Both the position numbers and the translations under genes were made by a program. The notes beneath the pieces were generated by a model. The model searched no databases. It worked only from the letters and a program-made list of their open reading frames with translations, and had not been told where the DNA came from. Source: Patescibacteria group bacterium (GTDB lineage: Bacteria > Patescibacteriota > Gracilibacteria > UM-FILTER-43-11). Taken from it: a stretch of DNA of 64,000 bases. Positions within the stretch are counted from its first letter, which is position 1. Each line of letters starts with the position of its first letter. Where the stretch lies: assembly GCA_018817125.1 (NCBI GenBank), contig JAHIUN010000002.1, forward strand, positions 62,001 to 126,000. Direction: 5' to 3'. Of this stretch, positions 6,500 to 31,735 are shown piece by piece.

Positions 6500-6609
6500 T
6501 TGGAATTTATAATTTGGCTTCGCCGTAATTCGTAACTTGTAATTTGAAATTGATTTAAATTATTATCATTTACAAATTACGAGTTACAAATTACAAATTA
6601 CAAGCTACA
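6500..6609. repeat. GTAATTTGTAATTTG palindromic family, copy 1
   Basis: Words such as CGTAATTCGTAACTTGTAA on the left pair with TTACAAATTACGAGTTACAA on the right, giving a long imperfect hairpin of about 110 nt between two divergent genes. Related copies lie at 25527-25637 and 29527-29647. Confidence 0.75.
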
Positions 6610-7005
6610 ATGAATAGTGTTATTCAGTCTTTTATGGCTCATATTTATTACATCATCAGCATCTTTGCCATCAGTATTCTGGGCTGGGTCTCGTGGATTG
6701 TCGTGATCAATAACTTAAGCCCTTTTATGTCTGGTTATCTGGCTTTAGGGTTTTTTTATGGCAGCCTGTTTATTGCCCTCACCGGCACGTTTTCCATTCT
6801 GAATTATTATCTGCGGATCAGTCTGGATAAGGGGGGCAATTATTTCAAACATTTAAATATCGCCCTGCGTCAGGGGAGTCTGCTTTCTATAATGGTCTGT
6901 GTGGGGCTGGCTTTTCAGCGTTTGCGGGTGCTGACCTGGTGGGACGCGCTTCTACTGCTGATGATCGTGCTGTTGGTTGAATATTATTTTATGTCGCGCG
7001 AATAA
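6610..7005 (+). CDS. Four-helix membrane protein, unknown function
   Basis: 131 residues that are almost entirely membrane-embedded: hydrophobic segments at about 9-31, 38-62, 88-104 and 111-127, separated by a polar loop (RISLDKGGNYFKHLNI). I do not recognise a named family. Small four-helix proteins of this kind are frequent and uncharacterised in Patescibacteria. It stands alone between a divergent SLH gene and the convergent glyS. The start follows the AT-rich palindrome directly, with no ribosome binding site. Confidence 0.75.
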   Translation: MNSVIQSFMAHIYYIISIFAISILGWVSWIVVINNLSPFMSGYLALGFFYGSLFIALTGTFSILNYYLRISLDKGGNYFKHLNIALRQGSLLSIMVCVGLAFQRLRVLTWWDALLLLMIVLLVEYYFMSRE

Positions 7006-19736: not shown

Positions 19737-19775
19737 AGTATTGGGTTATTAGGTGGAAATTTAAATTGCTTATAC

Positions 19776-19814
19776 AAAAACAAACACGAATTCAGGTGAA
19801 GTGTGTTTGTTTTT
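19776..19814 (-). promoter_or_regulatory. 5' leader hairpin of the 1941-aa surface gene
   Basis: A perfect 12-bp stem AAAAACAAACAC/GTGTTTGTTTTT with a 15-nt loop, placed about 40 nt before the start codon. It matches in position and arm composition the hairpin at 13236-13275 of the paralogous gene. Confidence 0.55.
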
Positions 19815-19879
19815 ATTTTTCCCTTATTTAAGCCATAAATCAGCTTATTACAAGGGCGGTTTTATAAGGGTTGGAGTTC

Positions 19880-19908
19880 AATCTATATAATATTTGACTT
19901 TTTGTCAA
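19880..19908 (-). promoter_or_regulatory. Probable promoter of the 1941-aa surface gene
   Basis: Minus strand TTGACA (19903-19908), a 17-nt spacer and TAGATT (19880-19885), or TATAGA with a 15-nt spacer. The -35 box lies in a dyad TTGAC AAAAA GTCAA. The -10 is weak. Confidence 0.55.
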
Positions 19909-19963
19909 GAATATTTTTTAGATTTTATTATTTATATATAAATAGGTATAGGTAGTGGTAGGC

Positions 19964-20077
19964 AAGTCCGGACTCCGGCAGAGTCCGGACTTTGGGGGAA
20001 TTACATCCCTCAAAGTATTATCGGGATAATACGCTGGGGGATGTCCTGCAGGGCAGGACATGAAAGTTGTGAACTTC
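19964..20077. repeat. String of four perfect hairpins
   Basis: In a row: AAGTCCGGACTC/GAGTCCGGACTT (19964-19992), GTATTATC/GATAATAC (20015-20032, itself enclosed by ACATCCC...GGGATGT), ATGTCCTGC/GCAGGACAT (20041-20061) and GAAAGTT/GAACTTC (20062-20077, imperfect). They lie between the surface gene promoter and the 3' end of the lipoprotein gene; no gene is present. The first hairpin recurs three more times in the next 7 kb. Confidence 0.75.
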
Positions 20078-20138
20078 AATTCAGCAAGTAGTATGCGAAG
20101 TGGAGCAATCACGCTCATCACTGTAAGTAAGGTTGATG

Positions 20139-20166
20139 CCCCGAGGCGGTTGTAGCCGCCCCGGGG
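20139..20166 (-). terminator. Hairpin after the coiled-coil lipoprotein gene
   Basis: CCCCGAGGCGG pairs with CCGCCCCGGGG around TTGTAG. It lies 14 nt beyond the stop at 20180. No T-run follows on the minus strand, so termination is uncertain. Confidence 0.45.
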
Positions 20167-20179
20167 ACTTGGTAGATGG

Positions 20180-21397
20180 TTACGGACAGAAACCGGTGTC
20201 GCCGGCGCGGACGGACGAAACGCACGTCAGGCCGTTGATGCTGACCTGGAAAGTGCCGCACCCGTCGCTGATTTGGCTCAGGGGCACACACGTCGGGTCG
20301 ATACTGAAGTATTCGACCCCAGTCAGCACTGTGCAGTGGGCGGCCGCCCGCTCGTCGGCGGTGAGGGTGCGCTTCACGCCCCCTTCCCAGACGAAGGTCC
20401 GGTCGAGAGCGTCTTCCCTGACTTCACCGGTATCCAGCCGGAAGTCCTGGCACTCGATGGTGCCGTCCGGCTGGTCCGCGCTCAGGCGGAACTGGAAACT
20501 GCGCGGCCGGTTGGCCGGCAGGCTGAGGAAGACTTCGTCGGAGGCGTATCCTACCGCTTCCGCGCGGAAGCGGAGCGATTCGCCTTCCAGCAAATCGCTT
20601 GCCGGAAGCAGGTACTCAATCGTACAATTGCCGTCGGCGCCGGTGGTGCACGTACGGGCGAAGTTCTCGCCCTCCGGAAATTCCGACCAGGCAATTCCTG
20701 TCTCGCTAACCTGGCAGCCAGCGATGGGGTTGCTACTGGACGGGTCGATGCACGTCGCGTTGAGACTGGCGGTAAACGTCAGAGCCAGCTTCAACTCTTC
20801 GAGGGCTTTCTTCACATCCTCGAGGACTCCGTCGACCTTGCCAATGAGCTCATCGATCTTGGCCAGCAGGTCGTCGACCTTGCCTTCGAGGGCGGTCAGG
20901 TCGAACGCCTCAATGGCGTCGATCGCGTCGAGCAGGTCCTGCTTCAGCGCCTCCAAGTCTTCCTTGGAGACGTTGTTGGCCAGTGCTTCCTGAAGGGCCG
21001 CAATGGCGTCGTTGAGGGCCGCGATGGCGTCCTCGATGGCGCCGGTGTTGGCGGCGAAATCGATGGACTTCTCGGTGGTCTCTCCGGGCGCCACGCTGAT
21101 GTCGTACAGGGTGGTGGCCAGAAAGGTCACGTCGTCGTCGGGCAGCGCGGTCGCCACGTAGACGTTCTCCCACGGAACCTCGAAGGTCGCCATGAGGTTG
21201 TCGTCGGCGTGCGCGACTTCCTCGAAGGTCACATCGTCCGGCGTGGTCAGGGTGACCTCACCAGGGTGGGAGAGATTGAACACGATGGTACCGGTCTCGG
21301 AGACCGATGCGTTGTGGCTTTCGTCGCCACAGGCGGCGAACAGCAGGGTGGCCGCGAGGGCCAGAAACAGAAACAGCACGTTGGCAGCCTTTTTCAT
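20180..21397 (-). CDS. Secreted coiled-coil lipoprotein, unknown
   Basis: 405 residues from the ATG at 21397, chosen because AGGAGG lies 7 nt before it and a clean lipoprotein signal follows (KKAANVLFLFLALAATLLF, AAC at about 21-23). Order: signal peptide and Cys, a short beta-rich part, then a strongly heptad-like helix (about 120-205; NDAIAALQEALANNV, VDDLLAKIDELIGKVDGV), then a domain with spaced Cys (ATCIDPSS, ARTCTTGADGNCTIEYLL) that looks like a Cna-B or carboxypeptidase-regulatory type fold. No family was recognised with confidence. Codons are visibly GC-rich compared with flanking native genes. It follows the barrel-protein gene by about 120 nt on the same strand, probably in one transcript. 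Confidence 0.75.
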   Translation of the reverse strand: MKKAANVLFLFLALAATLLFAACGDESHNASVSETGTIVFNLSHPGEVTLTTPDDVTFEEVAHADDNLMATFEVPWENVYVATALPDDDVTFLATTLYDISVAPGETTEKSIDFAANTGAIEDAIAALNDAIAALQEALANNVSKEDLEALKQDLLDAIDAIEAFDLTALEGKVDDLLAKIDELIGKVDGVLEDVKKALEELKLALTFTASLNATCIDPSSSNPIAGCQVSETGIAWSEFPEGENFARTCTTGADGNCTIEYLLPASDLLEGESLRFRAEAVGYASDEVFLSLPANRPRSFQFRLSADQPDGTIECQDFRLDTGEVREDALDRTFVWEGGVKRTLTADERAAAHCTVLTGVEYFSIDPTCVPLSQISDGCGTFQVSINGLTCVSSVRAGDTGFCP

Positions 21398-21518
21398 GGC
21401 ATACCTCCTATATCCAAAAGGGTTTTTTGTCAGTACAGAAACAGGTGGACGAACGGGGGAGCGGCCCCCCGTCCATCCGAAATGAATGAAAGGGTCGCGC
21501 TCCCCGGTTGTATGAGTA

Positions 21519-23243
21519 TCAGAACCGAAGGCCCATGAGCACGCGCACCATGGGGCCGTCCGGATTGACCGGATCACCGCTGGTGAACGCGCTGGTGGCG
21601 TTGTCGAGACTGAAGTGTTTGCCGCCCTCAATGCCGATAAACATGGCATCGAGACCGGTCAGCTCCAGCCCGCCCACGAGGCCCCACCCGTCGGGGTTGG
21701 GCTGTCCGTAGGCTCGCATGTAGGCGCTGACCCAGCCGGCGAAATTCACGCCGACCCGGCCACCGGCCTGGAAAACCAGGCTGGTGTCCACGGAGCGCCC
21801 ATCGGCACGACTGTCGTACACGATGGTTTCCTGGTGGGCCAGTTCCATGTGAAATCCACTGAACAGCGTCAGGTAGTTTATGATGTTCCACTCGAAGTCC
21901 AGACCGACGATACCGCCGCCAGTCCAGCCTTCGTGGTCTACCGATGCCTCGATGCCGCGGAAGCTCTGGGAAGAACTCCCGTTGAACCCGGACCACACAA
22001 ACCCCGCGTAGAGGTTCATATAGCCAGGCAGCAGAGGCTTGCTGTTGCTGGTGAACCAGGCCGAGACCGTGGGCGAACCCACGTGGCCGTAGTTAAACTT
22101 ACTCAGGCGGGTTTCGCCCGAGCACTCAGGGCATTCCGGACAATCCGGACATTCATTATTCTCACAGAAGGACTCGGCCACGTACAGCTTGACCTCACCC
22201 TTCTGGAAATTATCGAAGGGGATGGCGCGGGTAACACCCTTCGCCACCTCCACCACTGCCTGCTTCTCCGACAGGTCCGAGACCGTGCCGAAGAACGAGC
22301 CGTCACGGCTCACCGCTTCAACGGGCATGTCCTTCTTCAGGTCAGCCCATTTCGTCAAGCGGGGGCGGTGGTCACGCTCGTCGCCCGCGACCGAAAAGCT
22401 TTTCAGCTCCTCGGGAAGCGCGGAAAAACAAGCGCAGCTGGCCATCTCGAGCGCGAGCGGATCGTTTAGCTCACTCAGATCCTCGCAGAGGAAGGTGAGC
22501 TTTTCGCTCCGATCCTTCTCCGGAATCGAGTCCCGGAGGGAGATGGCAGCCTTGGCCATGGCCTTGGATCGGCCGGTGGGGTCTGCCCACGCGGCGTCAG
22601 CCGACGGCCGGTTGTAGAACTTGCTCATGTGAGCTGCGACACTGGGGCCGAGCTCGGTAGGGTCACCGATGCGGCGATACTGACCAAAGGCCTTCGTATT
22701 ACTTCCGTTGGGGCCTGCGTACCTACCCCACCACTCATTGTTAGAGAGGCGTTCCTCCTTGACAATTTTTAATACATTATTCCTGTTGAATTGTTCTCGG
22801 AGGGTGGCCTTCTGACCGAGGACGATGTCCGCGGAGCGCGGATGGCAGGTCGAGAAATCGACCAGCACGGGCTGGCGTTCGCTGTCATCGGCCGGCTTGG
22901 CCTTTTCAGCGACTTTGCCCTTGTCCGCCACGGGGGCGGGGGACTTGGTCTTGGCGACCTCACCCTTGTCCGCGGGAGCGGGGGGCTTGGTGCACGAGCT
23001 GAAGTCGGCCTTGAAGTCGGCCGGCGTGCAGCCGGCGTCGGCCAGGGCCTTGTCGACTGCGGCCTTGTTGGTCAGGTAGGGGGTACAGAAGTCGCCCTTC
23101 TTGGCGACGGTGACGAGCACCGTCTGGGCGTTGGCGTCGCTCAGGACGCCGCGCTTGTTGCACTCGGCGAGTGCGGGGTTTGCGAACAGGGTGGTGGCCA
23201 GCATGGCCGCCACGGCGAACATCACGATTGTGCTTCGTGCCAT
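21519..23243 (-). CDS. Secreted protein with C-terminal porin-like beta-barrel
   Basis: 574 residues from the ATG at 23243 (AAGGAGG 5 nt upstream). Signal peptide ARSTIVMFAVAAMLATTLF...ALA, a Cys-containing N-terminal domain, a Lys/Pro/Ala linker, a middle domain, then NECPDCPECPECSG and a region of about 180 residues of alternating beta-strands with many Gly and aromatic residues (YMNLYAGFVW, GGGIVGLDFEW, AGGRVGVNFAGW) ending in MVRVLMGLRF. A terminal Phe after amphipathic strands is the outer-membrane-barrel insertion signal. That is unexpected beside LAQTG and SLH proteins of a presumed single-membrane cell. A 20-codon in-frame extension with its own GGAGG begins at 23303. GC-rich codons suggest a foreign origin. 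Confidence 0.7.
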   Translation of the reverse strand: MARSTIVMFAVAAMLATTLFANPALAECNKRGVLSDANAQTVLVTVAKKGDFCTPYLTNKAAVDKALADAGCTPADFKADFSSCTKPPAPADKGEVAKTKSPAPVADKGKVAEKAKPADDSERQPVLVDFSTCHPRSADIVLGQKATLREQFNRNNVLKIVKEERLSNNEWWGRYAGPNGSNTKAFGQYRRIGDPTELGPSVAAHMSKFYNRPSADAAWADPTGRSKAMAKAAISLRDSIPEKDRSEKLTFLCEDLSELNDPLALEMASCACFSALPEELKSFSVAGDERDHRPRLTKWADLKKDMPVEAVSRDGSFFGTVSDLSEKQAVVEVAKGVTRAIPFDNFQKGEVKLYVAESFCENNECPDCPECPECSGETRLSKFNYGHVGSPTVSAWFTSNSKPLLPGYMNLYAGFVWSGFNGSSSQSFRGIEASVDHEGWTGGGIVGLDFEWNIINYLTLFSGFHMELAHQETIVYDSRADGRSVDTSLVFQAGGRVGVNFAGWVSAYMRAYGQPNPDGWGLVGGLELTGLDAMFIGIEGGKHFSLDNATSAFTSGDPVNPDGPMVRVLMGLRF

Positions 23244-23303
23244 CGTGGCCTCCTTAGGGTTTCGGGTTCGTTTCGAGAACTTCGAGTTCAGGTTCAGGTT
23301 CAT

Positions 23304-23736
23304 GAGAATTCGTACCTCCTTCCTCCGTATCGGAGGACGTTAAGATGCACTCTCCGATACGGTATCGGGAGCGTGCGGTTTAAAGCAATATGTGAATACT
23401 AACTTTGTCTGGTTAGCAGGGGCCAATCCCCTAAGTCTGTAAGTCTAAGTCCGGACTCCGTTGGAGTCCGGACTTGACCTAAATTTGACCTAAAAGATTA
23501 AACTCTGCTAACCAGCAGGGGGTACAAAAAACTGTTTCTGTTGTGTAGCATCAGGGCAATACCCTTGGGGGGCGGCCCTGTGCTGGTTCAATAGGGTCCG
23601 AAGTAACATCGGACTCGCTACTTAGCTTACAGTAATGAGTTGTTAAAGATCATCTAAACATGAGAGGACTTCCTGCCCTTACCCTCAAAACCAGTGGTTT
23701 TCAGGGGGGAACAGAAAGTGTTCTACGGTGTTTAGG
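23304..23736 (-). promoter_or_regulatory. Long structured 5' leader of the barrel-protein operon
   Basis: About 430 nt of non-coding leader. It contains the hairpin GTCCGATGttactTCGGAC preceded by GTAGCGA (about 23590-23622), the AAGTCCGGACTCC hairpin (23447-23475) and, next to the upstream start, CTCCGATACCGTATCGGAG and CCTCCGATACGGAGG stems beside the GGAGG. The GTAGCGAGTCCGATG part recurs in the leaders at 25.8 and 26.95 kb. Confidence 0.6.
23447..23475. repeat. AAGTCCGGACTCC hairpin, copy 2
   Basis: AAGTCCGGACTCC, a 3-nt loop, GGAGTCCGGACTT: perfect. Here it lies inside the leader; in the two cassette copies it lies just upstream of the promoter. Confidence 0.85.
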
Positions 23737-23742
23737 TTCCCA

Positions 23743-23771
23743 ATTCTATAACAAAAAATTAAAAGTGTCAA
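23743..23771 (-). promoter_or_regulatory. Promoter of the barrel-protein / lipoprotein operon
   Basis: Minus strand TTGACA (23766-23771), a 17-nt spacer and TAGAAT (23743-23748). Transcription would start near 23736. Confidence 0.7.
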
Positions 23772-23810
23772 GGCTTTTTATATAAAAAATAGTATTTTTT
23801 TACTGCATCC

Positions 23811-23840
23811 AAAAACCCCCTTTTATAAAAGGGGGTTTTT
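23811..23840. terminator. Bidirectional terminator-like palindrome
   Basis: AAAAACCCCCTTTT / AAAAGGGGGTTTTT, a perfect 30-bp palindrome with T-runs in both directions. A second hairpin GCCGG...CCGGC lies at 23856-23873. Confidence 0.7.
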
Positions 23841-23965
23841 GTGCATCGGATTTTGGCCGGTTTTTGAACCGGCTGATAAAATAAATCGGATAATAAATAT
23901 TTAATCCGCTTTGATCATAAGTCTTTTTAAGCACATGACTTATCAGCAAAGGTGATTAAAAGGGC

Positions 23966-24002
23966 CCCCACCCACCGTCGCGTAAAGCTATGGTGGGTGG
24001 GG
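23966..24002 (-). terminator. Terminator of the Cys-rich membrane protein gene
   Basis: CCCCACCCACC pairs exactly with GGTGGGTGGGG (23966-23976 with 23992-24002), followed on the minus strand by CCCTTTTAATC. It lies 27 nt past the stop at 24029. Confidence 0.85.
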
Positions 24003-24028
24003 ACAAGGAAAGGGTTCCCCCTTTCTAG

Positions 24029-25372
24029 CTAACTGTCATCCTCCTCGTCGGGAAGAGCGAGCGCTTGGACTCGCTTATCAGCCCTATCGAGAGAGAGCTG
24101 ATATGACCGCAACTCTATCTCGAGAATCTGGAGCTGAGCGGGGTCTGCGGCCTCGCCCTGGGCCTTGAGCTCATCGATTTGCTTGGTGAGCTCATTGATT
24201 GTGTCGCGGTGCTCCTGGGCTAAATCGAAAAAGATATCCCGGGCCAACTCGCGGACTAAGTCCTTCCTGATGGCGTCCAGCAGGGACTCCGGAGGTGCTT
24301 CGAGCGCCTCGTCGAAGTCGGTCTTGGAAACCATGAGCGCGCCGAGTGCCGCGAGCGCCCCCTTCATGAAGGGGTGCTCGGGGTGCAGGAAACCACCCTC
24401 TTCGGCCGAGGTGAGCTCGTTGACCAGCTTGACCTCGAGAGCCTCGTAGCTCTGGGCATCCACTGGGGGCAGGTCGGGAACATCATCTGCCACGATGACG
24501 GTCTCGCTGCCGGTAGGAGCGTCGGGGGTACCGGGCCCCTCGGAGTCATCATCCTTCTTCCGTCGGGTGACGAAGAAGAAGATGACGGCGGCCAGGACGA
24601 TTAGCAGCAGAGCAAGGCCAAGGATCCAGGGCCAGTAGTAACTGAACCAGCTCGGACATTCTTCGTTTCCACCTGCCTTGAGGACCCAGGGGCCGCTCGG
24701 ATGAAGGTCATCGCGGAGTGACTCAGGGCAGTTTGTGCATAGGCACACTTCGGGGAAGTCCGGAGTCTTGCATGCCACCTTTTCGGTGGTGTCCGGGCAG
24801 GTGTCGGCGAAGCCGTCCTCGCTGGGATGGAGCTTGGCCTGATGCCAGGCATTCCAGCACTTGGCGGCCTCGTAGGCCTCGCGGTCTTTCTTGTTCTTGA
24901 GCGCGGCCAGGCGGTCGGCCTTGTCCTTGCGAGCCTTCTCGGCGGCGGCCAGTTCGGCCTTGGTCATGCAGACGTCGTCTACGTCCCGGCCGACGGTCAC
25001 GAAGGTGCCGGCCAGTTCGGGTTCGTCGCACTCACAGTGCGACTTGTCCGCTGTCTCGTGCGTGCCTTTGGGGCACTTGATGGTCGGTTTGGCTACTCTG
25101 ACCGCTTTGCAAGCCGGCAGAGCACTGAAGGCTTCGTTGACCACCTTCCGGCAGGCCTTCAAACACAAAGGATCGCCGGCGCAGCTCATTTCGCAGCCAT
25201 TTAGCGTACTGCTCATAAGGTTTTTGGCCTTATGGGACTGGCACTGCTGCTGGGTGAGCTTTACGTAGTAGGGGAATTTCTGGATTTCATGGTCGATGGC
25301 CGCCATTGCGGCCGGAGTGAGGCCGGTCAGGCCGAAGACCATCAGGGTCAGCAACAGAATTCTCCGTTTCAT
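24029..25372 (-). CDS. Cys-rich single-pass membrane protein with cytoplasmic coiled coil
   Basis: 447 residues from the ATG at 25372 (AAAGGAG 9 nt upstream). Signal peptide RRILLLTLMVFGLTGLTPAAMAA, an ectodomain of about 200 residues with some 20 cysteines (NGCEMSCAGDPLCLKACRK, HCECDEPE, VCLCTNCPE) and a Lys/Glu/Ala helix in the middle, a membrane helix (about 246-270, WPWILGLALLLIVLAAVIFF) followed by RRKKDDD as stop-transfer, then an acidic linker and a C-terminal helical region rich in heptads (ELTKQIDELKAQGEAADPA). The topology resembles a receptor or adhesin with an inside tail. I recognise no family. A 20-codon in-frame upstream extension with a strong GGAGG starts at 25432. Codons are GC-rich. 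Confidence 0.72.
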   Translation of the reverse strand: MKRRILLLTLMVFGLTGLTPAAMAAIDHEIQKFPYYVKLTQQQCQSHKAKNLMSSTLNGCEMSCAGDPLCLKACRKVVNEAFSALPACKAVRVAKPTIKCPKGTHETADKSHCECDEPELAGTFVTVGRDVDDVCMTKAELAAAEKARKDKADRLAALKNKKDREAYEAAKCWNAWHQAKLHPSEDGFADTCPDTTEKVACKTPDFPEVCLCTNCPESLRDDLHPSGPWVLKAGGNEECPSWFSYYWPWILGLALLLIVLAAVIFFFVTRRKKDDDSEGPGTPDAPTGSETVIVADDVPDLPPVDAQSYEALEVKLVNELTSAEEGGFLHPEHPFMKGALAALGALMVSKTDFDEALEAPPESLLDAIRKDLVRELARDIFFDLAQEHRDTINELTKQIDELKAQGEAADPAQLQILEIELRSYQLSLDRADKRVQALALPDEEDDS

Positions 25373-25432
25373 GGTAACTTCTCCTTTCAAAAAACAGTTA
25401 TTAGTCTGAAGACACAGTTTCGTTCCAGTCAT
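25373..25432 (-). other. 20-codon in-frame upstream extension (alternative start)
   Basis: GGAGG, 6 nt, then ATG at 25432, in frame with the main start at 25372 and without a stop: MTGTKLCLQTNNCFLKGEVT. Nearly the same peptide precedes the gene at 26168-26659, and a different peptide of exactly the same length precedes the barrel gene (23244-23303). It is either an N-terminal extension or a leader peptide read through to the gene. Confidence 0.55.
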
Positions 25433-25999
25433 TTTTTACCTCCTCCCCGTAAAGGGATGTGAACTCCCCAACGGGGGAGAGGATTCAAGGGAAATTACTA
25501 ACAAGCCGTATTTATTTTTTTATATAGTCGTAATTTGTAATTTGTTCGCTCGTGGCGAACGTAACTTGTAACTGGTAATTTTTGCCTCATATTTTTATAA
25601 ATTACGAGTTACTAGTTGCGAGTTACAAATTACGAACAATAAATTAAAAACAAATATAGCTTGTCAGTATCTCCCGGTAAGCTAGAAAAAAGTGTAAGTT
25701 TATAAAACATCCAAAAGCATCCGCACCCTCCGTTAAGAGGGACGAATCAGCTCATTGGATAATTATAAATCTTACTATCAATAGGGTCCGATGTCCATCG
25801 GACTCGCTACTTATAACCCTATCCTGTAAAAGATCATATCCCGCTCTGAGAGCTGGGATTCCGACGATATCATTCAGTCAAAAAAGCGCAGGCAATAAAA
25901 GCCGGATGGCTTTAAAAAAAGTTGCGCGTTGTGTCCGCCCGGTGATGGGGGATCAGGTTGGTTCGAACCAAAGTTTTTGACTTAAATGATAAAAGTCGG
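25433..25999 (-). promoter_or_regulatory. Long structured leader, cassette copy 1
   Basis: About 620 nt from the predicted start site to the main ATG. Recognisable parts in transcript order: GGTTCGAACC, GCTCTCAGAGC inside ATCCC...GGGAT, GTAGCGAGTCCGATGGACATCGGAC (25780-25811), CTCTTAACGGAGGG, CTCCCCCGTTGGGGAG and GGGGAGGAGG at the start site. It is near-identical to 26720-27171 except for an AT-rich palindrome (25527-25637) present only here. Confidence 0.65.
25527..25637. repeat. GTAATTTGTAATTTG palindromic family, copy 2
   Basis: GTCGTAATTTGTAATTTG on the left, TTACAAATTACGAAC on the right. The duplicated leader at 26720-27171 lacks it and has only a short unrelated stretch at the same place (about 26795-26815), so this copy looks like an insertion or a precise loss. 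Confidence 0.8.
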
Positions 26000-26005
26000 A
26001 TTGCA

Positions 26006-26034
26006 ATTGTAGGTTATTTTATAAAATTTGTCAA
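26006..26034 (-). promoter_or_regulatory. Promoter, cassette copy 1
   Basis: Minus strand TTGACA (26029-26034), a 17-nt spacer and TACAAT (26006-26011). Identical to the promoter at 27178-27206. Confidence 0.82.
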
Positions 26035-26053
26035 GATAAAAAGTCTTACGTCT

Positions 26054-26082
26054 AAGTCCGGACTCCGTTGGAGTCCGGACTT
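26054..26082. repeat. AAGTCCGGACTCC hairpin, copy 3
   Basis: A perfect hairpin with a 3-nt loop, about 20 nt upstream of the -35 box of cassette copy 1 and just past the terminator of the preceding gene. Confidence 0.85.
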
Positions 26083-26102
26083 TACTTTATTACTAAGAAA
26101 AT

Positions 26103-26130
26103 CCCCGCCCCGGCAGATGCCGAAGCGGGG
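26103..26130 (-). terminator. Terminator of the small Cys-rich secreted protein
   Basis: CCCCGC..CGGC AGAT GCCG..GCGGGG, followed on the minus strand by ATTTTCTT. A copy lies at 27274-27303. Confidence 0.75.
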
Positions 26131-26167
26131 AGAATAGGGGGCAGAGGGGCGACTACTATAGAGGGTG

Positions 26168-26659
26168 CTATTGACTGGTGGCCTGGATGACAGCTTTCAT
26201 ACACAACTCGTACAGGGCGTCGTCATCCCCGTGCAGGGTGCCGCAATTTCCTTCGATGACACCTCTCATGGAACGATCTACCTTGTCAAGAAGACTCCTG
26301 AATCGGGGATGGCTCTGGGGATGATTCTTGTACTTCTGAACCCAGTTCTCTTCGGCCTTGCAGGTGTACTTTTCCGGCACCTTGGCCACCCACTCTTTGC
26401 ACTTCCTGAGCAGGGTGTCATCGTCCAGGTATCCGTTGCAGGACGAGCGAGCGAAAGCTTTTTCTCTGGCGACATTGGCATTGAGCCATCTCTTGAGCCG
26501 GCAGTCATTGCCGCAGTCCCCTCCAGGGCACTTTGCGGCTTTCTGAAGCAGTTGGTCAGCCTCCGCAGCCCCCTTGAAATTGGGCGCGTCGGCCCAAGCG
26601 GTGGCGGTCAGGCTCATCAGAGCTGCCACCAGAGCGATCAGCAGGATTCCTCGTTTCAT
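26168..26659 (-). CDS. Small Cys-rich secreted protein, unknown
   Basis: 163 residues from the ATG at 26659 (AAAGGAG upstream). Signal peptide RGILLIALVAALMSLTATAWA, then a mature part with about nine cysteines (AAKCPGGDCGNDCRLKRW, SSCNGYLDD, RKCKEW, KYTCKAEENW, GNCGTLHGDDDALYELC) and predicted helices. I recognise no family. A 20-codon in-frame extension with GGAGG begins at 26719. The leader and promoter are duplicates of those of the membrane protein at 24029-25372, and a 5'-truncated paralogue of this gene follows at 27335. The arrangement suggests a small family of co-expressed secreted factors. Confidence 0.7.
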   Translation of the reverse strand: MKRGILLIALVAALMSLTATAWADAPNFKGAAEADQLLQKAAKCPGGDCGNDCRLKRWLNANVAREKAFARSSCNGYLDDDTLLRKCKEWVAKVPEKYTCKAEENWVQKYKNHPQSHPRFRSLLDKVDRSMRGVIEGNCGTLHGDDDALYELCMKAVIQATSQ

Positions 26660-26719
26660 GGTAAGTTCTCCTTTCAAAAAACAGTTATTAGTCTGAAGAC
26701 ACAGTTTCGTTCCAGTCAT

Positions 26720-27171
26720 TTTTTACCTCCTCCCCGTAAAGGGATGTGAACTCCCCAACGGGGGAGAGGATTCAAGGGAAATTACTAACAAGCCAGATCC
26801 GCCTCTTAAAAATAAGAAACAGATACGGCCTGTCAGTACTTCCCGGTAAGCTAGAAAAAAGTGTAAGTTTATAAAACATCCAAAAGCATCCGCACCCTCC
26901 GTTAAGAGGAACGAATCGGCTCATTGAATAATTATAAATCTTACTATCAGTAGGGTCCGATGTCCATCGGACTCGCTACTTATAACCCTATCCTGTAAAA
27001 GATCATATCCCGCTCTGAGAGCTGGGATTCCGACGATATCATTCAGTCAAAAAAGCGCAGACAATAATAGCTCAAAAGCTTTATTGAAAGTTGCGCGTTG
27101 TTTCCGCCCGGTGATGGGGGATTAGGTTGGTTCGAACCAAAGGTTTTTTGACTTAAGTAAATAAAAGTCGG
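26720..27171 (-). promoter_or_regulatory. Long structured leader, cassette copy 2
   Basis: About 510 nt from the predicted start site to the main ATG. It carries the same blocks as copy 1: GGTTCGAACC, GCTCTCAGAGC, GTAGCGAGTCCGATGGACATCGGAC (26949-26979) and CCCCGTTGGGGAG. It lacks the AT-rich palindrome. Conservation of this non-coding stretch at near-coding level argues for an RNA or DNA function, or for a recent duplication. Confidence 0.65.
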
Positions 27172-27177
27172 ATTGCA

Positions 27178-27206
27178 ATTGTAGGTTATTTTATAAAATT
27201 TGTCAA
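27178..27206 (-). promoter_or_regulatory. Promoter, cassette copy 2
   Basis: Minus strand TTGACA (27201-27206), a 17-nt spacer and TACAAT (27178-27183). Confidence 0.82.
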
Positions 27207-27225
27207 GATAAAAAGTCTTACGTCT

Positions 27226-27254
27226 AAGTCCGGACTCCAACGGAGTCCGGACTT
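27226..27254. repeat. AAGTCCGGACTCC hairpin, copy 4
   Basis: AAGTCCGGACTCC, a loop AAC, GGAGTCCGGACTT. The loop differs from copies 2 and 3 (GTT) while the arms are intact. Confidence 0.85.
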
Positions 27255-27273
27255 TACTTTATTACTAAGAAAA

Positions 27274-27303
27274 CCCCCGCCCCGGCAGATGCCGAAGCGG
27301 GGG
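27274..27303 (-). terminator. Terminator of the truncated paralogue
   Basis: CCCCCGC..CGGC AGAT GCCG..GCGGGGG, followed by GTTTTCTT on the minus strand. A duplicate of 26103-26130 with one more base pair. Confidence 0.75.
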
Positions 27304-27334
27304 AATAGGGGGCAGAGGGGCGACTACGTGGAGC

Positions 27335-27597
27335 CTATCGACCAGTGGCCTGGATGACAGCCTTCATACACAGTTCGTACAGGGCGTCGTCATCCCCGTG
27401 CAGGGTGCCGCAGTTTCCTTCAATGATTCCTCTCATGGAACGATCTGCCTTGTCAAGAAGACTCCTGAATCGAGGATGACTCTGGGGATGATTTTTGTAC
27501 TTCTGAACCCAGTCCTCTTCGGCCTCGCAGGCGTACTTCTCGGGAAGGCCGGCAACCAGCGTCTTGCACTTCTTAAGATCAGAATCGCTCTTATAAG
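27335..27597 (-). pseudogene. 5'-truncated copy of the small Cys-rich secreted gene
   Basis: Reads in frame to the same C-terminus as the intact gene (EKYACEAEEDWVQKYKNHP, DKADRSMRGIIEGNCGTL, MKAVIQATGR and stop) with scattered substitutions, but begins abruptly near YKSDSDLKKCK without signal peptide or start. The reading frame is undisturbed, so the truncation is recent or the fragment is a donor for gene conversion. The break lies against the promoter of aroD, which runs the other way. Confidence 0.8.
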
Positions 27598-27603
27598 AGA
27601 CAA

Positions 27604-27632
27604 TTGATGTTTTTTACTGAATAACCTACAAT
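27604..27632 (+). promoter_or_regulatory. Promoter of aroD
   Basis: TTGATG (27604-27609), a 17-nt spacer, TACAAT (27627-27632). Its AATAACCTACAATT core is the same as in the two cassette promoters, here facing right, at the edge of the truncated copy. Confidence 0.7.
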
Positions 27633-27675
27633 TAGTCCATCGATCAGACCCTCAATTAACTCCTCAATCAGTACC

Positions 27676-28347
27676 ATGCTCATCTGTACCCCGGTTCAGG
27701 AAAAAACGCAGGAGAAAGCCTTAAAACGGCTCCAGGAGCTTAAAAATCAGGTCGATTTAGCCGAAGTGTGGATCGATTCGGTCAAAGATCTGGACCTGCC
27801 GCTTCTTATAAAACAGGCCGCCTTACCTTTGGTCGTCGTCTGCAAAAAACCCGCTGAAAAAGGCGCTTTTAAGGGTTCCCGGGCCGATTTGGCCGCCCAA
27901 CTGGAAAATGCGTGCAAATGTGGAGCTGAATATGTGGATATTCCCTTTAATATGCCGAAAAATATGAGAAAAAAAGTTATTCAAAAGGCCAAAAAGACCC
28001 AAATCATCATCTCACATCACGATTTTAAGAAAACCCCCACACTTTCATGGATGCTGAAAACGGCCCGTATGATGAAAAAAAGCGGCGCGGACATTGTTAA
28101 AATGGCGGTCATGGCGCACTCCCTGGAAGACACATTTAGCCTTATTCTACTGGCCCAGCGCCTGCAAGCCGAAAAGATCCCCCATATTCTGATCGCCATG
28201 GGCAAAGAGGGGATTTTAAGCCGAGTCATCACTCCCTTTCTGGGCGGAACCATCATGTTCGCTCCCCTTAAAGCCTCCCGGGCCACCGCCAGCGGGCAGT
28301 TAACCGTTAAAGAGCTTAAAAAGGCGTGGAGTTTGATTAAAAAATAA
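27676..28347 (+). CDS. aroD: Type I 3-dehydroquinate dehydratase
   Basis: Third step of the shikimate pathway, by the Schiff-base mechanism. 223 residues. Visible: AEVWIDS (Glu/Asp of the first strand), IIISHHDF with the catalytic His, DIVKMAVMAHS with the Schiff-base Lys, and SRVITPFLGGTIMFAPL plus ATASGQLTV at the C-terminus. No other shikimate gene is nearby. The spacer to ychF is a word-repeat palindrome (AAGAATAGC, GCAATTCTTA). Confidence 0.92.
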   Translation: MLICTPVQEKTQEKALKRLQELKNQVDLAEVWIDSVKDLDLPLLIKQAALPLVVVCKKPAEKGAFKGSRADLAAQLENACKCGAEYVDIPFNMPKNMRKKVIQKAKKTQIIISHHDFKKTPTLSWMLKTARMMKKSGADIVKMAVMAHSLEDTFSLILLAQRLQAEKIPHILIAMGKEGILSRVITPFLGGTIMFAPLKASRATASGQLTVKELKKAWSLIKK

Positions 28348-28349
28348 GT

Positions 28350-28425
28350 AGAATTGATAAAGAATAGCCAAAGAATTGTTTAAAGAATAGCAATTCTTAT
28401 GCAATACTTAAGCAATTCTTATCCC
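28350..28425. repeat. GAATAGC / GCAATTCTT word palindrome
   Basis: AAAGAATAGC and AAGAATTG words on the left are answered by GCAATTCTTA on the right. The same words fill 54544-54625 after eno. Confidence 0.6.
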
Positions 28426-28431
28426 ATCTTT

Positions 28432-29526
28432 ATGAGTTTAAAAATCGGCATCGTCGGCCTTCCGAATGTGGGAAAATCCACCCTTTTTAACGCGCTGACC
28501 CGCAGTAAAGGGGCTCAGGCCGCTAATTATCCTTTCTGCACCATCGATCCGAACGTGGGCGTGGTGGAAGTGCCCGATGAGCGTTTGAATGTTTTGGCAG
28601 ACCTTGTGAAGCCTGAAAACGTCATTCCGGCCGTGGTTGAATTTGTGGATATCGCCGGGTTGGTAAAAGGTGCTTCGGAGGGAGAAGGATTGGGCAATAA
28701 ATTTCTGGCTAATATTCGCGAGTGCCACGCGATCGCTCAGGTCATCCGGTTCTTTGAAGACCCGGATGTTACCCATGTTCACGGCGGTATCAATCCGAAA
28801 CTGGATATGGATGTGATCCACCTGGAACTGATTCTGGCAGACTTAGACACCGTCAGCCGGCGGCTTTCGGAGGCGGAAAAAAAGGCCAAATCCGGAGACA
28901 AAGAACTCATCGCTCAGGCAGGCATGCTGAATCGGCTGAAAGAACATCTGGAGGCGGAAAAGCTGGCCATCAACCTTGATTTTTCAGAAAAAGAGCAGGA
29001 ATTTATTAAGGATCTTCATTTGCTCACCAATAAGCCTTTTATCTACATCGCCAATCTCAAAGAAGAGGAATTAGCCGCTTTTGACGCGGAAAAAGTCAAA
29101 AAAGATCTGGCTTTAGGCCCTCATGAAAAGCTTTTGCCCATTTCCGCTAAAGTGGAAGAGGATCTGGTCGGATTCAATGTCCAGGAAGCCGGGGAATACC
29201 TGAAAGAATTAGGTCTTAAAGAATCAGGTCTGAACGCTTTTATCCGGGCCGCTTACAGCCTTTTAGGGCTGATGACCTTCTTCACGGCTGGCCCGAAAGA
29301 AACCCGTGCCTGGACAGTTAAAAAAGGGGCTAGAGCTCCTCAGGCAGCGGGTGTGATTCACACGGATTTTGAAAAAGGCTTTATCAAGGCCGAGACCATC
29401 AGTTACGATGATTTTGTGACCTGTAAGGGGGAGCAGGAGGCCCGTGATCGCGGTAAACTGCGGCAGGAGGGGAAGGAGTATGTGGTACAGGATGGAGATG
29501 TGATGCACTTTAAATTTAATAATTAA
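28432..29526 (+). CDS. ychF: Redox-regulated ATPase / GTPase YchF
   Basis: Obg-family P-loop protein (OLA1 in eukaryotes) that binds ribosomes and prefers ATP. About 364 residues from the ATG at 28432, chosen because [20 protein letters not shown] begins there as in the family. G1 [10 protein letters not shown]3 [17 protein letters not shown], a variant G4 (NLKEEE) linked to ATP preference, and the C-terminal TGS domain ([21 protein letters not shown]...) are complete. Confidence 0.96.
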
Positions 29527-29647
29527 TTGTAATTTGTAATTTGCTCCCCCGCGGCAAACGCGGGATCGCGTAACTTGTAACTGGTAATTTTTGTTTAATG
29601 CTTTATTAAATTACGAATTACAAGTTACGAATTACAAGTTACAATTA
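29527..29647. repeat. GTAATTTGTAATTTG palindromic family, copy 3
   Basis: TTGTAATTTGTAATTTG, then CGCGTAACTTGTAACTGG, then TTACGAATTACAAGTTAC. The part GTAACTTGTAACTGGTAATT is identical in the copy at 25 kb. It occupies the whole gap before the phosphorylase. Confidence 0.8.
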
Positions 29648-29666
29648 TTAAAAAGTCAAAACAGCA

Positions 29667-31319
29667 ATGTCATCAAATAACGTGAAAATAGCATATTTCA
29701 GTATGGAGATCGCCCTGAAATCCGAAATGCCCAATTACGCGGGCGGATTAGGGGTGCTGGCCGCGGACATTTTAAAATCCTGTGCAGATTTGGCTGCACC
29801 CGTGTGCGGGGTGAGTTTGATGTATCATGTTAGTGAAGACCCTCAGCATGCTTTTAGACCGGGTCAGGAATTTAAAAAACGTCCGGAAACTGTGCAGATG
29901 CACATTGAAGACCGCCTGGTCACTATCGGCGTATGGGAATATATTATGAGAGGGGAAAAAGGAGAGATCCCGCTTTATTTTTTGGATACAAACCTGCCGG
30001 AAAACAAGCGCTGGGATCGTGATATCACCAATGGTTTATACGCGTCTGACCGCTACACCCGCCTGTGCCAGGAGGTGATTTTAGGGATTGGAGGCGTGCG
30101 AATGCTGAGAGAGCTGGGGCATGATTCCATCGAAACCTTCCACATGAACGAGGGTCACGCAGCCATGCTTACCCTCGCGCTTTTAAAAGAAAATGAGTTT
30201 AAAGATGAGCCGGTGAAGGCGCTTTGCGCGTTCACTACTCATACACCCGTGCCGGCCGGCCACGATCATTTTGATTACAAATTGGTCGATCGGGTACTGA
30301 CTCAGAAAGTACCGTGGCATATTAAAAAGCTGGCCGGCAATGATGACCTGAATATGACCCGTTTGGCCCTGTCGCTAAGCCGGAAAGTCAATGGGGTGGC
30401 CCGAAAACACGCGCAGGTCTGCAACCAGATGTTCCCGGAGTACACATTTCAGGCGGTCACCAATGGTATCCACGTAAAAACATGGGCTGGGAAAAGCATG
30501 GCTCAGCTTTTTGATAAAGAATTGTCCGGCTGGGCGCAGGATCCTGAAAAACTGAAAGGGGCGGTTGACCTGCAGGATGAATCGCTTATCGAAGCGCATA
30601 ATACCGGCAAAAAAGTGCTCATCGATCACATCAACAACAATCCGGATTTCTTTCCGATTCCATCAAATGAACTGGAAGATGGTGATCTTTTTGATATGGA
30701 CACCCTCACCATCACATTCGCACGGCGTTTTGTATCGTATAAAAGACCGCTTTTAATCTTCCACGACCTCGATCGCCTGCGTGATCTGGGGTACGAAAAA
30801 CTCCAATTGATCTTCGCCGGTCCGTATCACCCGGACAACCACTATGCCATGGAAATCCTGAATCAACTCAGCCATTATGGGCATGGTCTGCGGGGGCAGA
30901 TAAAAATCGCTATTTGCTCGGATTACAATCTGGCCACGTCTCAGTATCTGGTGCGGGGAACGGATGTGTGGCTCAATAATCCTCAGCCCCCCATGGAGGC
31001 CAGCGGGACGAGCGGGATGAAAGCCGCGCTGAATGCCGCCCTCAACTTATCCATTTTAGATGGCTGGTGGATTGAGGGATTTGAACAGGACCCTAAAAGC
31101 GGCTGGGCATTTGGCCAGGAGCCTTCTGGCATCATCCAGCCTCAAGAAGACAAGGTAGATGCGGACGCGCTATACAACACGCTCGAGGACGTGATTGACT
31201 GTTACTATAAACGGAAAGACGAATGGGTGGAGCGCATGAAGCACGCTGTTTCTTTGGGTGCCTATTTCAACACCCACCGTTGTGTGAAAGAATACATGGA
31301 AAAGATGTGGACTATATAA
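29667..31319 (+). CDS. glgP: Alpha-glucan phosphorylase, GT35 short form
   Basis: Releases glucose-1-phosphate from alpha-glucans, using pyridoxal phosphate. The 550 residues match the short bacterial/archaeal form rather than the 800-residue glycogen phosphorylase. Visible: YFSMEIAL and NYAGGLGVLAADILKS at the N-terminus, ETFHMNEGHAA, FTTHTPVPAGHD, and the PLP-lysine region EASGTSGMKAALNAALN. It suggests stored or scavenged glucan use and fits with galU further on. Confidence 0.92.
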   Translation: MSSNNVKIAYFSMEIALKSEMPNYAGGLGVLAADILKSCADLAAPVCGVSLMYHVSEDPQHAFRPGQEFKKRPETVQMHIEDRLVTIGVWEYIMRGEKGEIPLYFLDTNLPENKRWDRDITNGLYASDRYTRLCQEVILGIGGVRMLRELGHDSIETFHMNEGHAAMLTLALLKENEFKDEPVKALCAFTTHTPVPAGHDHFDYKLVDRVLTQKVPWHIKKLAGNDDLNMTRLALSLSRKVNGVARKHAQVCNQMFPEYTFQAVTNGIHVKTWAGKSMAQLFDKELSGWAQDPEKLKGAVDLQDESLIEAHNTGKKVLIDHINNNPDFFPIPSNELEDGDLFDMDTLTITFARRFVSYKRPLLIFHDLDRLRDLGYEKLQLIFAGPYHPDNHYAMEILNQLSHYGHGLRGQIKIAICSDYNLATSQYLVRGTDVWLNNPQPPMEASGTSGMKAALNAALNLSILDGWWIEGFEQDPKSGWAFGQEPSGIIQPQEDKVDADALYNTLEDVIDCYYKRKDEWVERMKHAVSLGAYFNTHRCVKEYMEKMWTI

Positions 31320-31411
31320 CTAATAACCAATAGAGGGCCCGTCGAGGACCCAATTGATTGCAAATCTGATATTCAGTCAATTGGGCCTTCAATGGGTCTT
31401 CAATCGGAATC

Positions 31412-31735
31412 ATGGATAAACGAAAAAATCCCATCACCATCAACGAAGGTTTTAAGTGCCTGAAATGCAAAATGGACGTAAAGCCCCATCCTGAAGGCAG
31501 CTGCCGGAACCATTGCCCGTACTGTCTTTTTTCCCTTCATGTGGATTTAGACGTGCCGGGCGATAGGCTATCGGAATGTCAGGGGTTTATGAAACCGATC
31601 GGAATGGAAATAAACAAGAAAAAAGGCGTGCGCATCATTCATATGTGTCAAAAATGCGGACTTAAAAATTTCAACCGCTCCGCCCCCGATGATAACTGGG
31701 ATTTAATATGTGAACTCAGCAGAATGCCGCATTAA
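31412..31735 (+). CDS. RNHCP domain protein
   Basis: 107 residues with paired zinc-binding cysteines: FKCLKCKMDV, CRNHCPYCLFSLHVD, and HMCQKCGLKNFNR. The RNHCP motif that names the family (PF12647) is intact. Its molecular role is unknown; the zinc-ribbon layout suggests nucleic acid or ribosome contact. The gap before it is a palindrome of CAATTGGGCC-type words. Confidence 0.88.
   Translation: MDKRKNPITINEGFKCLKCKMDVKPHPEGSCRNHCPYCLFSLHVDLDVPGDRLSECQGFMKPIGMEINKKKGVRIIHMCQKCGLKNFNRSAPDDNWDLICELSRMPH

Follow-up and report, generated by a model that had tools for sequence, protein, structure and literature searches.

The palindrome at positions 25530 to 25635 of the window (the entire 64,000-nt stretch of DNA analyzed here) belongs to a dispersed family of hairpins that shows gain or absence at several loci and covariation between its arms at position 5 of their repeat units, and most of the PF05635 genes tested in related genomes are framed by inverted arms. 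On balance, we lean toward the view that the window palindrome is MITE-like, lacks a gene, and belongs to a broad class of intergenic elements resembling the intervening sequences (IVSs) of rRNA genes.

Palindrome copies in the window and gain in a duplicated leader

A sequence-only reading of the window had placed a palindrome of about 110 nt at 25527 to 25637, with relatives at 6500 to 6609 and 29527 to 29647. All three were found, the first at 25530 to 25635 (plus strand; 106 to 111 nt), where the predicted fold is a three-way hairpin whose long stem consists of GTAAYTB units, each 7 nt; its 5' arm bears a small side hairpin rich in GC (TTCGCTCGTGGCGAAC, 25545 to 25560, plus strand), and its end loop is AT-rich. 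At the place of the side hairpin, other copies carry different yet self-complementary versions. The second copy (6500 to 6609, plus strand) lies between two divergently placed ORFs, with its last base directly preceding the ATG at 6610, and the third (29527 to 29647, plus strand) starts on the base that follows the stop of the ORF at 28399 to 29526. Calculated fold energies for the three, in the order given, were -45.1, -29.1, and -46.6 kcal/mol (z of -8.1, -6.3, and -7.9). Matches to the unit GTAATTTGTAATTTG at no more than 3 mismatches numbered 24 in the window versus 3.4 expected, a count reached by 0 of 100 shuffles. The three window palindromes are intergenic rather than inside a 23S rRNA gene, their inverted terminal arms pair into a single stem as those of an IVS do, and none of them holds a PF05635 ORF in its loop. 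Short length, lack of a gene, dispersal, and terminal inverted repeats are traits that the family shares with MITEs. An Rfam scan of window positions 19700 to 31500 listed six matches, none of which reached the gathering score. A second palindrome, AAGTCCGGACTCC...GGAGTCCGGACTT, occurs in four copies in the window (19964 to 19992, 23447 to 23475, 26054 to 26082, and 27226 to 27254).

The copy at 25530 stands in one of two leaders, A and B, that are true duplicates: a left block of 169 nt (25339 to 25507 in A, 26626 to 26794 in B) agrees at 94%, a right block of 300 nt (25641 to 25940 in A, 26810 to 27109 in B) at 92%, and another 142 nt at 97%. As the sequence-only reading had noticed, the palindrome is confined to leader A; the same point in leader B is occupied by a small stem-loop, CTAACAAGCC...CGGCCTGTCAG (26785 to 26836, plus strand), which is probably the older state. 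The same small stem-loop, in a more perfect form, is held by one leader copy of G001, a sister species of the same genus; a second G001 sequence aligned at this locus was too diverged there and was left uncounted. Since leader B and one sister leader are both without the palindrome, it was probably gained in leader A. The reading had also described the flanks as the same on both sides and the palindrome as behaving like an insertion. Base-level alignment upheld the presence and absence but, at this locus, neither identical flanks nor a clean insertion: the leaders agree on the left until ACAAGCC and on the right from about CTGTCAG/TTGTCAG, the roughly 30 nt between these ends differ, no target-site duplication was seen between A and B, and it is the tip of an older hairpin that appears replaced. 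The spacings of the two blocks, 1287 and 1169 nt, put the net gain at 118 nt, the palindrome itself measuring 106 to 111 nt.

A dispersed family and its sites in a sister species

The genome from which the window derives (G000; 1.03 Mb in 17 contigs), which judging by its size and gene content is probably that of a small-genome lineage of the CPR type, yielded 98 unit matches, in both orientations, in a search that allowed one mismatch, versus 0 for the reversed control pattern. These grouped into 17 sites plus two strays, the single weak matches at C2:44582 and C11:61007, which were kept out of the 17. Four copies at unrelated places (window 25530 and 29529, C7:28628, and C7:55611) have in common a 23-nt string, GTAACTTGTAACTGGTAATTTTT, with the unit order GTAACTT-GTAACTG-GTAATTT-TT, and the copies at C12:72746 and C13:36208 form a second subfamily. 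Long unit strings that are identical at unrelated sites, in two subfamilies, argue for copying and against independent slippage. All 16 copies that were folded (the list excludes C11:36194) had z values between -4.1 and -9.5. The exact two-unit pattern was found in 23 of 58 genomes searched, with a very uneven distribution. In one of the other genomes, G049, several contigs (L035 among them) open on a run of perfect GTAATTT units, about 12 of them, which makes it probable that such arrays break assemblies.

All 17 sites were located and aligned in the sister species. Three of them (C5:31064, C7:47203, and C10:31738) hold the same family there with altered units, and two are short or absent: C7:55611 spans 207 nt in G000 (some non-palindromic sequence included) versus 7 nt in G001, which is near-clean, and C11:36194 spans 433 versus 51 nt. 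The other 12 slots contain a different sequence, which by eye was another tandem or palindromic repeat in 8 (with units such as CACGAGT/A, TTAACTM, and CGAAATT), a small hairpin in 1 (the site at 25527), and nothing recognized in 3. In the reverse direction, a sister copy at C10:4102, nested within a second heptamer palindrome upstream of a gene that we take from its sequence to be lepA, is absent from G000, again near-cleanly (145 versus 8 nt); the G000 counterpart of a second sister copy, C36:14596, is unrelated sequence. Inspection by eye of the compared loci (the leaders, the G000/G001 sites, and C10:4102) revealed no target duplication. The suggestion that loci can gain or lose these palindromes is thus supported by leader B and one sister leader, both without it, and by the two near-clean absences elsewhere. 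A stronger rule, that sister slots are refilled by other palindromes, was rejected: it described 8 of 17 slots plus one short hairpin by eye, but 8 of 11 sister slots had a fold z below -3 versus 12 of 30 ordinary G001 gaps, some of which overlap slots (P = 0.065). This test leaves out 6 of the 17 slots: C11:21300, the three that keep the same family, and two that were too short (C7:55611 and C11:36194). Because the slots were not clearly above background, refilling is kept as a hint.

PF05635 genes between inverted arms

At one of the 17 sites (C11:36194 to 36608), heptamer arms of the same kind as those of the gene-less copies enclose a 120-codon ORF that matches PF05635, the 23S rRNA-intervening sequence protein (E = 9.7e-21), and TIGR02436 (2.3e-21); its sequence-nearest solved structure is 2RLD (E = 3e-4). 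PF05635 is a four-helix-bundle family that is not known to act as a transposase. It had 16 matches in G000, one of which (L249) is inside 23S rRNA, and 119 matches altogether in 17 of the 20 genomes searched. Across these 20 genomes, counts of GTAAYTB matches and of PF05635 were rank correlated (rho = 0.78, kinship being ignored). A PF05635 query had no match in phages and matched one plasmid record, from Pseudanabaena.

Framing of PF05635 genes was scored by comparing the 150 nt upstream of the start with the inverted 120 nt downstream of the stop, to which the final 9 nt of the ORF were added. The set comprised 61 loci (including L069), namely, all of those in G000 and G001 and 35 of the 46 from G002, G006, G008, and G010; with L236 dropped for want of a right flank, 60 loci from six related genomes were tested. 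Of these, 39 scored at least 15 and lay above the 99th percentile for 720 pairings of left and right flanks from different loci, versus 0 of 96 control ORFs of at least 200 codons from two of the genomes; among mechanically called ORFs of 100 to 200 codons, 2 of 106 passed, and both were PF05635 genes. In other groups, mostly Bacteroidota, 33 of 75 PF05635 loci (5 of 80 having been dropped) scored above 15 versus 1 of 92 control ORFs. The arm test was failed by 21 of the 60 related loci and by 42 of the 75 from other phyla, and Fisher values for framing are a guide only, the loci not being independent. Among related PF05635 ORFs, the arm words differ from genome to genome, and arms vary between copies while the ORF family stays constant. 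Bacteroidota arms (GGTCATT/AATGACC) are interrupted by small GC hairpins, like the window palindrome.

This framing bears on the alternative that the copies are REP- or MITE-type palindromes that owe their movement to a transposase, either a Y1 (REP-associated) enzyme or another, unrelated to PF05635, and that the gene-bearing copy arose by chance insertion of a gene into a palindrome. RAYT is the Y1 transposase associated with REP. In their small size, intergenic dispersal, hairpin arms, and related subfamilies, the palindromes do look like such elements, and PF05635 at a single site of 17 agrees with a chance insertion; yet PF05635 is the common partner of many arm families per genome, its genes have inverted arms far more often than the controls (39/60 versus 0/96), and the loci read revealed no target duplication, so we consider this alternative unlikely. 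Reverse transcriptase was rejected as the mover: RVT_1 (PF00078) had no match in G000 (88.7% complete) and was present in just 2 of 20 genomes, a scarcity that argues against cDNA mobility.

Several further observations concern PF05635 genes. Boxes of the GGTGAACATTTGTTT type, which in our judgment resemble LexA sites, occur upstream of those at L250, L251, L263, L267, and L273. An AT-rich leader, approximately TTTTGTATTTAAATGAAT, recurs within the last 20 to 25 nt before the PF05635 ATG in many copies with differing arms. At L148:1477 to 2535 (G000, C2), a PF05635 domain is fused in frame with what is presumably a type IV prepilin-like sequence, downstream of a presumed pilB-like ORF, and at their PF05635 matches G004 and G012 have open frames of comparable length.

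Other genes were found in similar frames in three cases (two GxxExxY, one GIY-YIG-like), all read by eye and without a control. A GxxExxY gene in G000 (C7:12725 to 13138, or L298:4726 to 5139; TIGR04256, 4.6e-40) has its own inverted arms, and the G001 counterpart of this slot, before a gene that we take to be radA-like, contains a PF05635 gene instead. Nearby, at L300:3899 to 4313 (G001, C23), an ORF with an in-frame stop, which we take to be GIY-YIG-like, lies between inverted arms of the TTGTCATTCC type; the matching G000 slot is a plain 48-nt palindrome. The third is a GxxExxY gene of G021 (L039:1063 to 1428), with inverted flanks. Separately, a repeat of about 93 nt at L103:15022 to 15114 (G000, C11) has some seven or eight further copies, at 84 to 92% identity, in G001.

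Repeat units and maintenance of the stem

In a test restricted to the arms, lag 7 was the strongest period in both the related and the other-phyla sets. Among the loci with a clear tandem array, 13 of 28 from related genomes and 9 of 46 from other phyla had lag 7, and 3 and 4 more, respectively, had double that lag; units of 8, 10, and 11 nt were also found. The arm-only test was used because autocorrelation over whole flanks was rejected as proof of a period of 7, control flanks from palindrome-rich regions having an equal lag-7 value (0.036 versus 0.035). It follows from this equality that the period is a habit of spacers and is not exclusive to the PF05635 gene. The length of the tandem unit was a multiple of 3 in just 11 of 74 loci (P = 0.0003, for loci that are not independent). 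As 7 is no multiple of 3 and three GTAAYTB units close all frames, one idea is a role in providing stop codons, and units of 10 to 11 nt could reflect helical pitch.

Position 5 of the unit covaries between the arms (0.89 versus 0.72 +/- 0.06 in 60 refolded resamplings of arms), whereas matching at position 7 falls below the control level (0.47 versus 0.62 +/- 0.06). A plain permutation gave a stronger effect at position 5 (48/54 versus 28), and the control with refolded, resampled arms was taken as the fair test; C11:36194 and C11:56261 are excluded from the covariation tests. The stem is thus maintained, apparently with one weak step per unit, and the combination of covariation at position 5 with below-control matching at position 7 is unlike what would result if one arm were simply copied from its partner. 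Arm-to-arm copying, which should repair position 7, is what would be expected if there were no mobility at all and the palindromes arose in place by heptamer slippage and quasi-palindrome template switching, with PF05635 genes gathering such arms because the RNA or protein tolerates them. Such an origin would account for the differing heptamer content of orthologous copies (C5:31064, C7:47203, and C10:31738) and for the resemblance of the left outer arm of leader A to the inverted right one, and it is made quite improbable by the long identical unit orders at unrelated sites, by the two subfamilies, and by the near-clean absences at C7:55611 and G001 C10:4102. It is very improbable that the copies are host hairpins of transcription or mRNA ends (bidirectional terminators, RNase III sites), exchanged since any strong hairpin serves: they do lie tight against stop or start codons, and 8 of 17 sister slots have a different repeat by eye and one a short hairpin, but copies also stand between divergent ORFs (6500) and, at 25530, within a leader that precedes a start, neither of them a place to expect a terminator, and the excess of folds in the slots over ordinary gaps is not clear.

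A proposed mobile element

Under the preferred reading, that of an IVS-like element class, the element would be a hairpin with a stem of short tandem units, most often of 7 nt, and an interior that is either a short loop or a small gene; the gene, when present, would most often belong to the 23S rRNA IVS protein family (PF05635, four-helix bundle). Gene-less copies may derive from gene-bearing ones or be served by them in trans. In 6 of 16 copies (C11:56261 left out), versus about 0.8 expected, the outer 40-nt flanks form an inverted pair of their own, and the leader A and lepA copies are hairpins nested in hairpins, which suggests to us that hairpin tips are where new copies land; they would settle in existing ones as IVSs do in rRNA helices. 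The arms would afterwards lengthen, shorten, and diverge by slippage of units, with most pairing retained.

More tentatively, and with somewhat less than even confidence, we propose that single-gene elements framed by palindromes are a general and largely unrecorded type of bacterial mobile element, of which rRNA IVSs would be the subset that landed in rRNA genes and GTAAYTB palindromes the gene-less form, with units of 7 to 11 nt, optional cargo (PF05635, GxxExxY, or a GIY-YIG nuclease-like protein), landing in hairpin tips, and arms that change faster than the cargo. If many PF05635 genes do sit in intergenic, heptamer-armed hairpins, then the function of a "four helix bundle protein" that is very common can be tested, one question being whether it binds and spreads its own stem, and the short intergenic repeats of small-genome bacteria gain a candidate agent. 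As such frames surround many copies of a small gene that was familiar until now chiefly from insertions in rRNA genes, the data hint that tiny mobile elements of this family are widespread and have drawn little notice.

Comparison with known systems

The PF05635 genes at L249 (G000), L258 (G001), and L268 (G008) lie within 23S rRNA, as we judge from the rRNA sequence of their flanks. IVSs are known already, and the intergenic, heptamer-armed, gene-less forms appear to be new here; a search of open-access literature by titles and abstract openings found no intergenic PF05635 elements with heptamer arms. MITEs and REP-type palindromes are likewise short, dispersed, intergenic, and without a gene, but the arms here are degenerate tandem heptamers and no target duplication was seen.

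Three other systems share single features with the elements. Avd of diversity-generating retroelements resembles PF05635, according to the accessible part of one report (PMC10053308), yet no reverse transcriptase was detected in G000. In the P6b region of the Nostoc tRNA-Leu intron, degenerate 7-nt repeats pair into a hairpin, vary in copy number, and are accompanied by additional inserts that deviate from the motif, all as seen here; P6b is fixed in a tRNA intron, and the available sections of its description mention no PF05635 gene, whereas the present elements are dispersed between genes (PMC3488679). Insertions in the 16S and 23S rRNA genes of CPR bacteria, mostly at the tips or bases of stem-loops, can encode IVP ORFs and so share PF05635 cargo with the elements here, although that study, as far as its accessible text goes, concerns rRNA genes and mostly LAGLIDADG and has nothing on intergenic copies or heptamer arms (PMC11270868).

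A close counterpart is the IVS of Coxiella burnetii, which is 428 nt long; it has a terminal stem of 28 bp, contains an S23p ORF, and carries the heptamer GACAGAT in two or three tandem copies (PMC4990558). In the sections of that report available, IVSs figure as a curiosity of rRNA genes whose ORF has no known function, and the authors bring up transposition or mobility only as hypotheses. The Coxiella IVS sits in an rRNA helix, whereas the elements here are mostly intergenic, and most GTAAYTB copies differ from it in being gene-less and in having arms with small GC side hairpins (PMC4990558). Excision by RNase III belongs to the IVS of 23S rRNA; the present elements are known from sequence alone. 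Like the gene-bearing site here, the whole Coxiella element measures about 430 nt, and both have inverted arms paired into one long stem, a PF05635-type ORF in the loop, and a variable number of tandem heptamers beside that ORF (PMC4990558).
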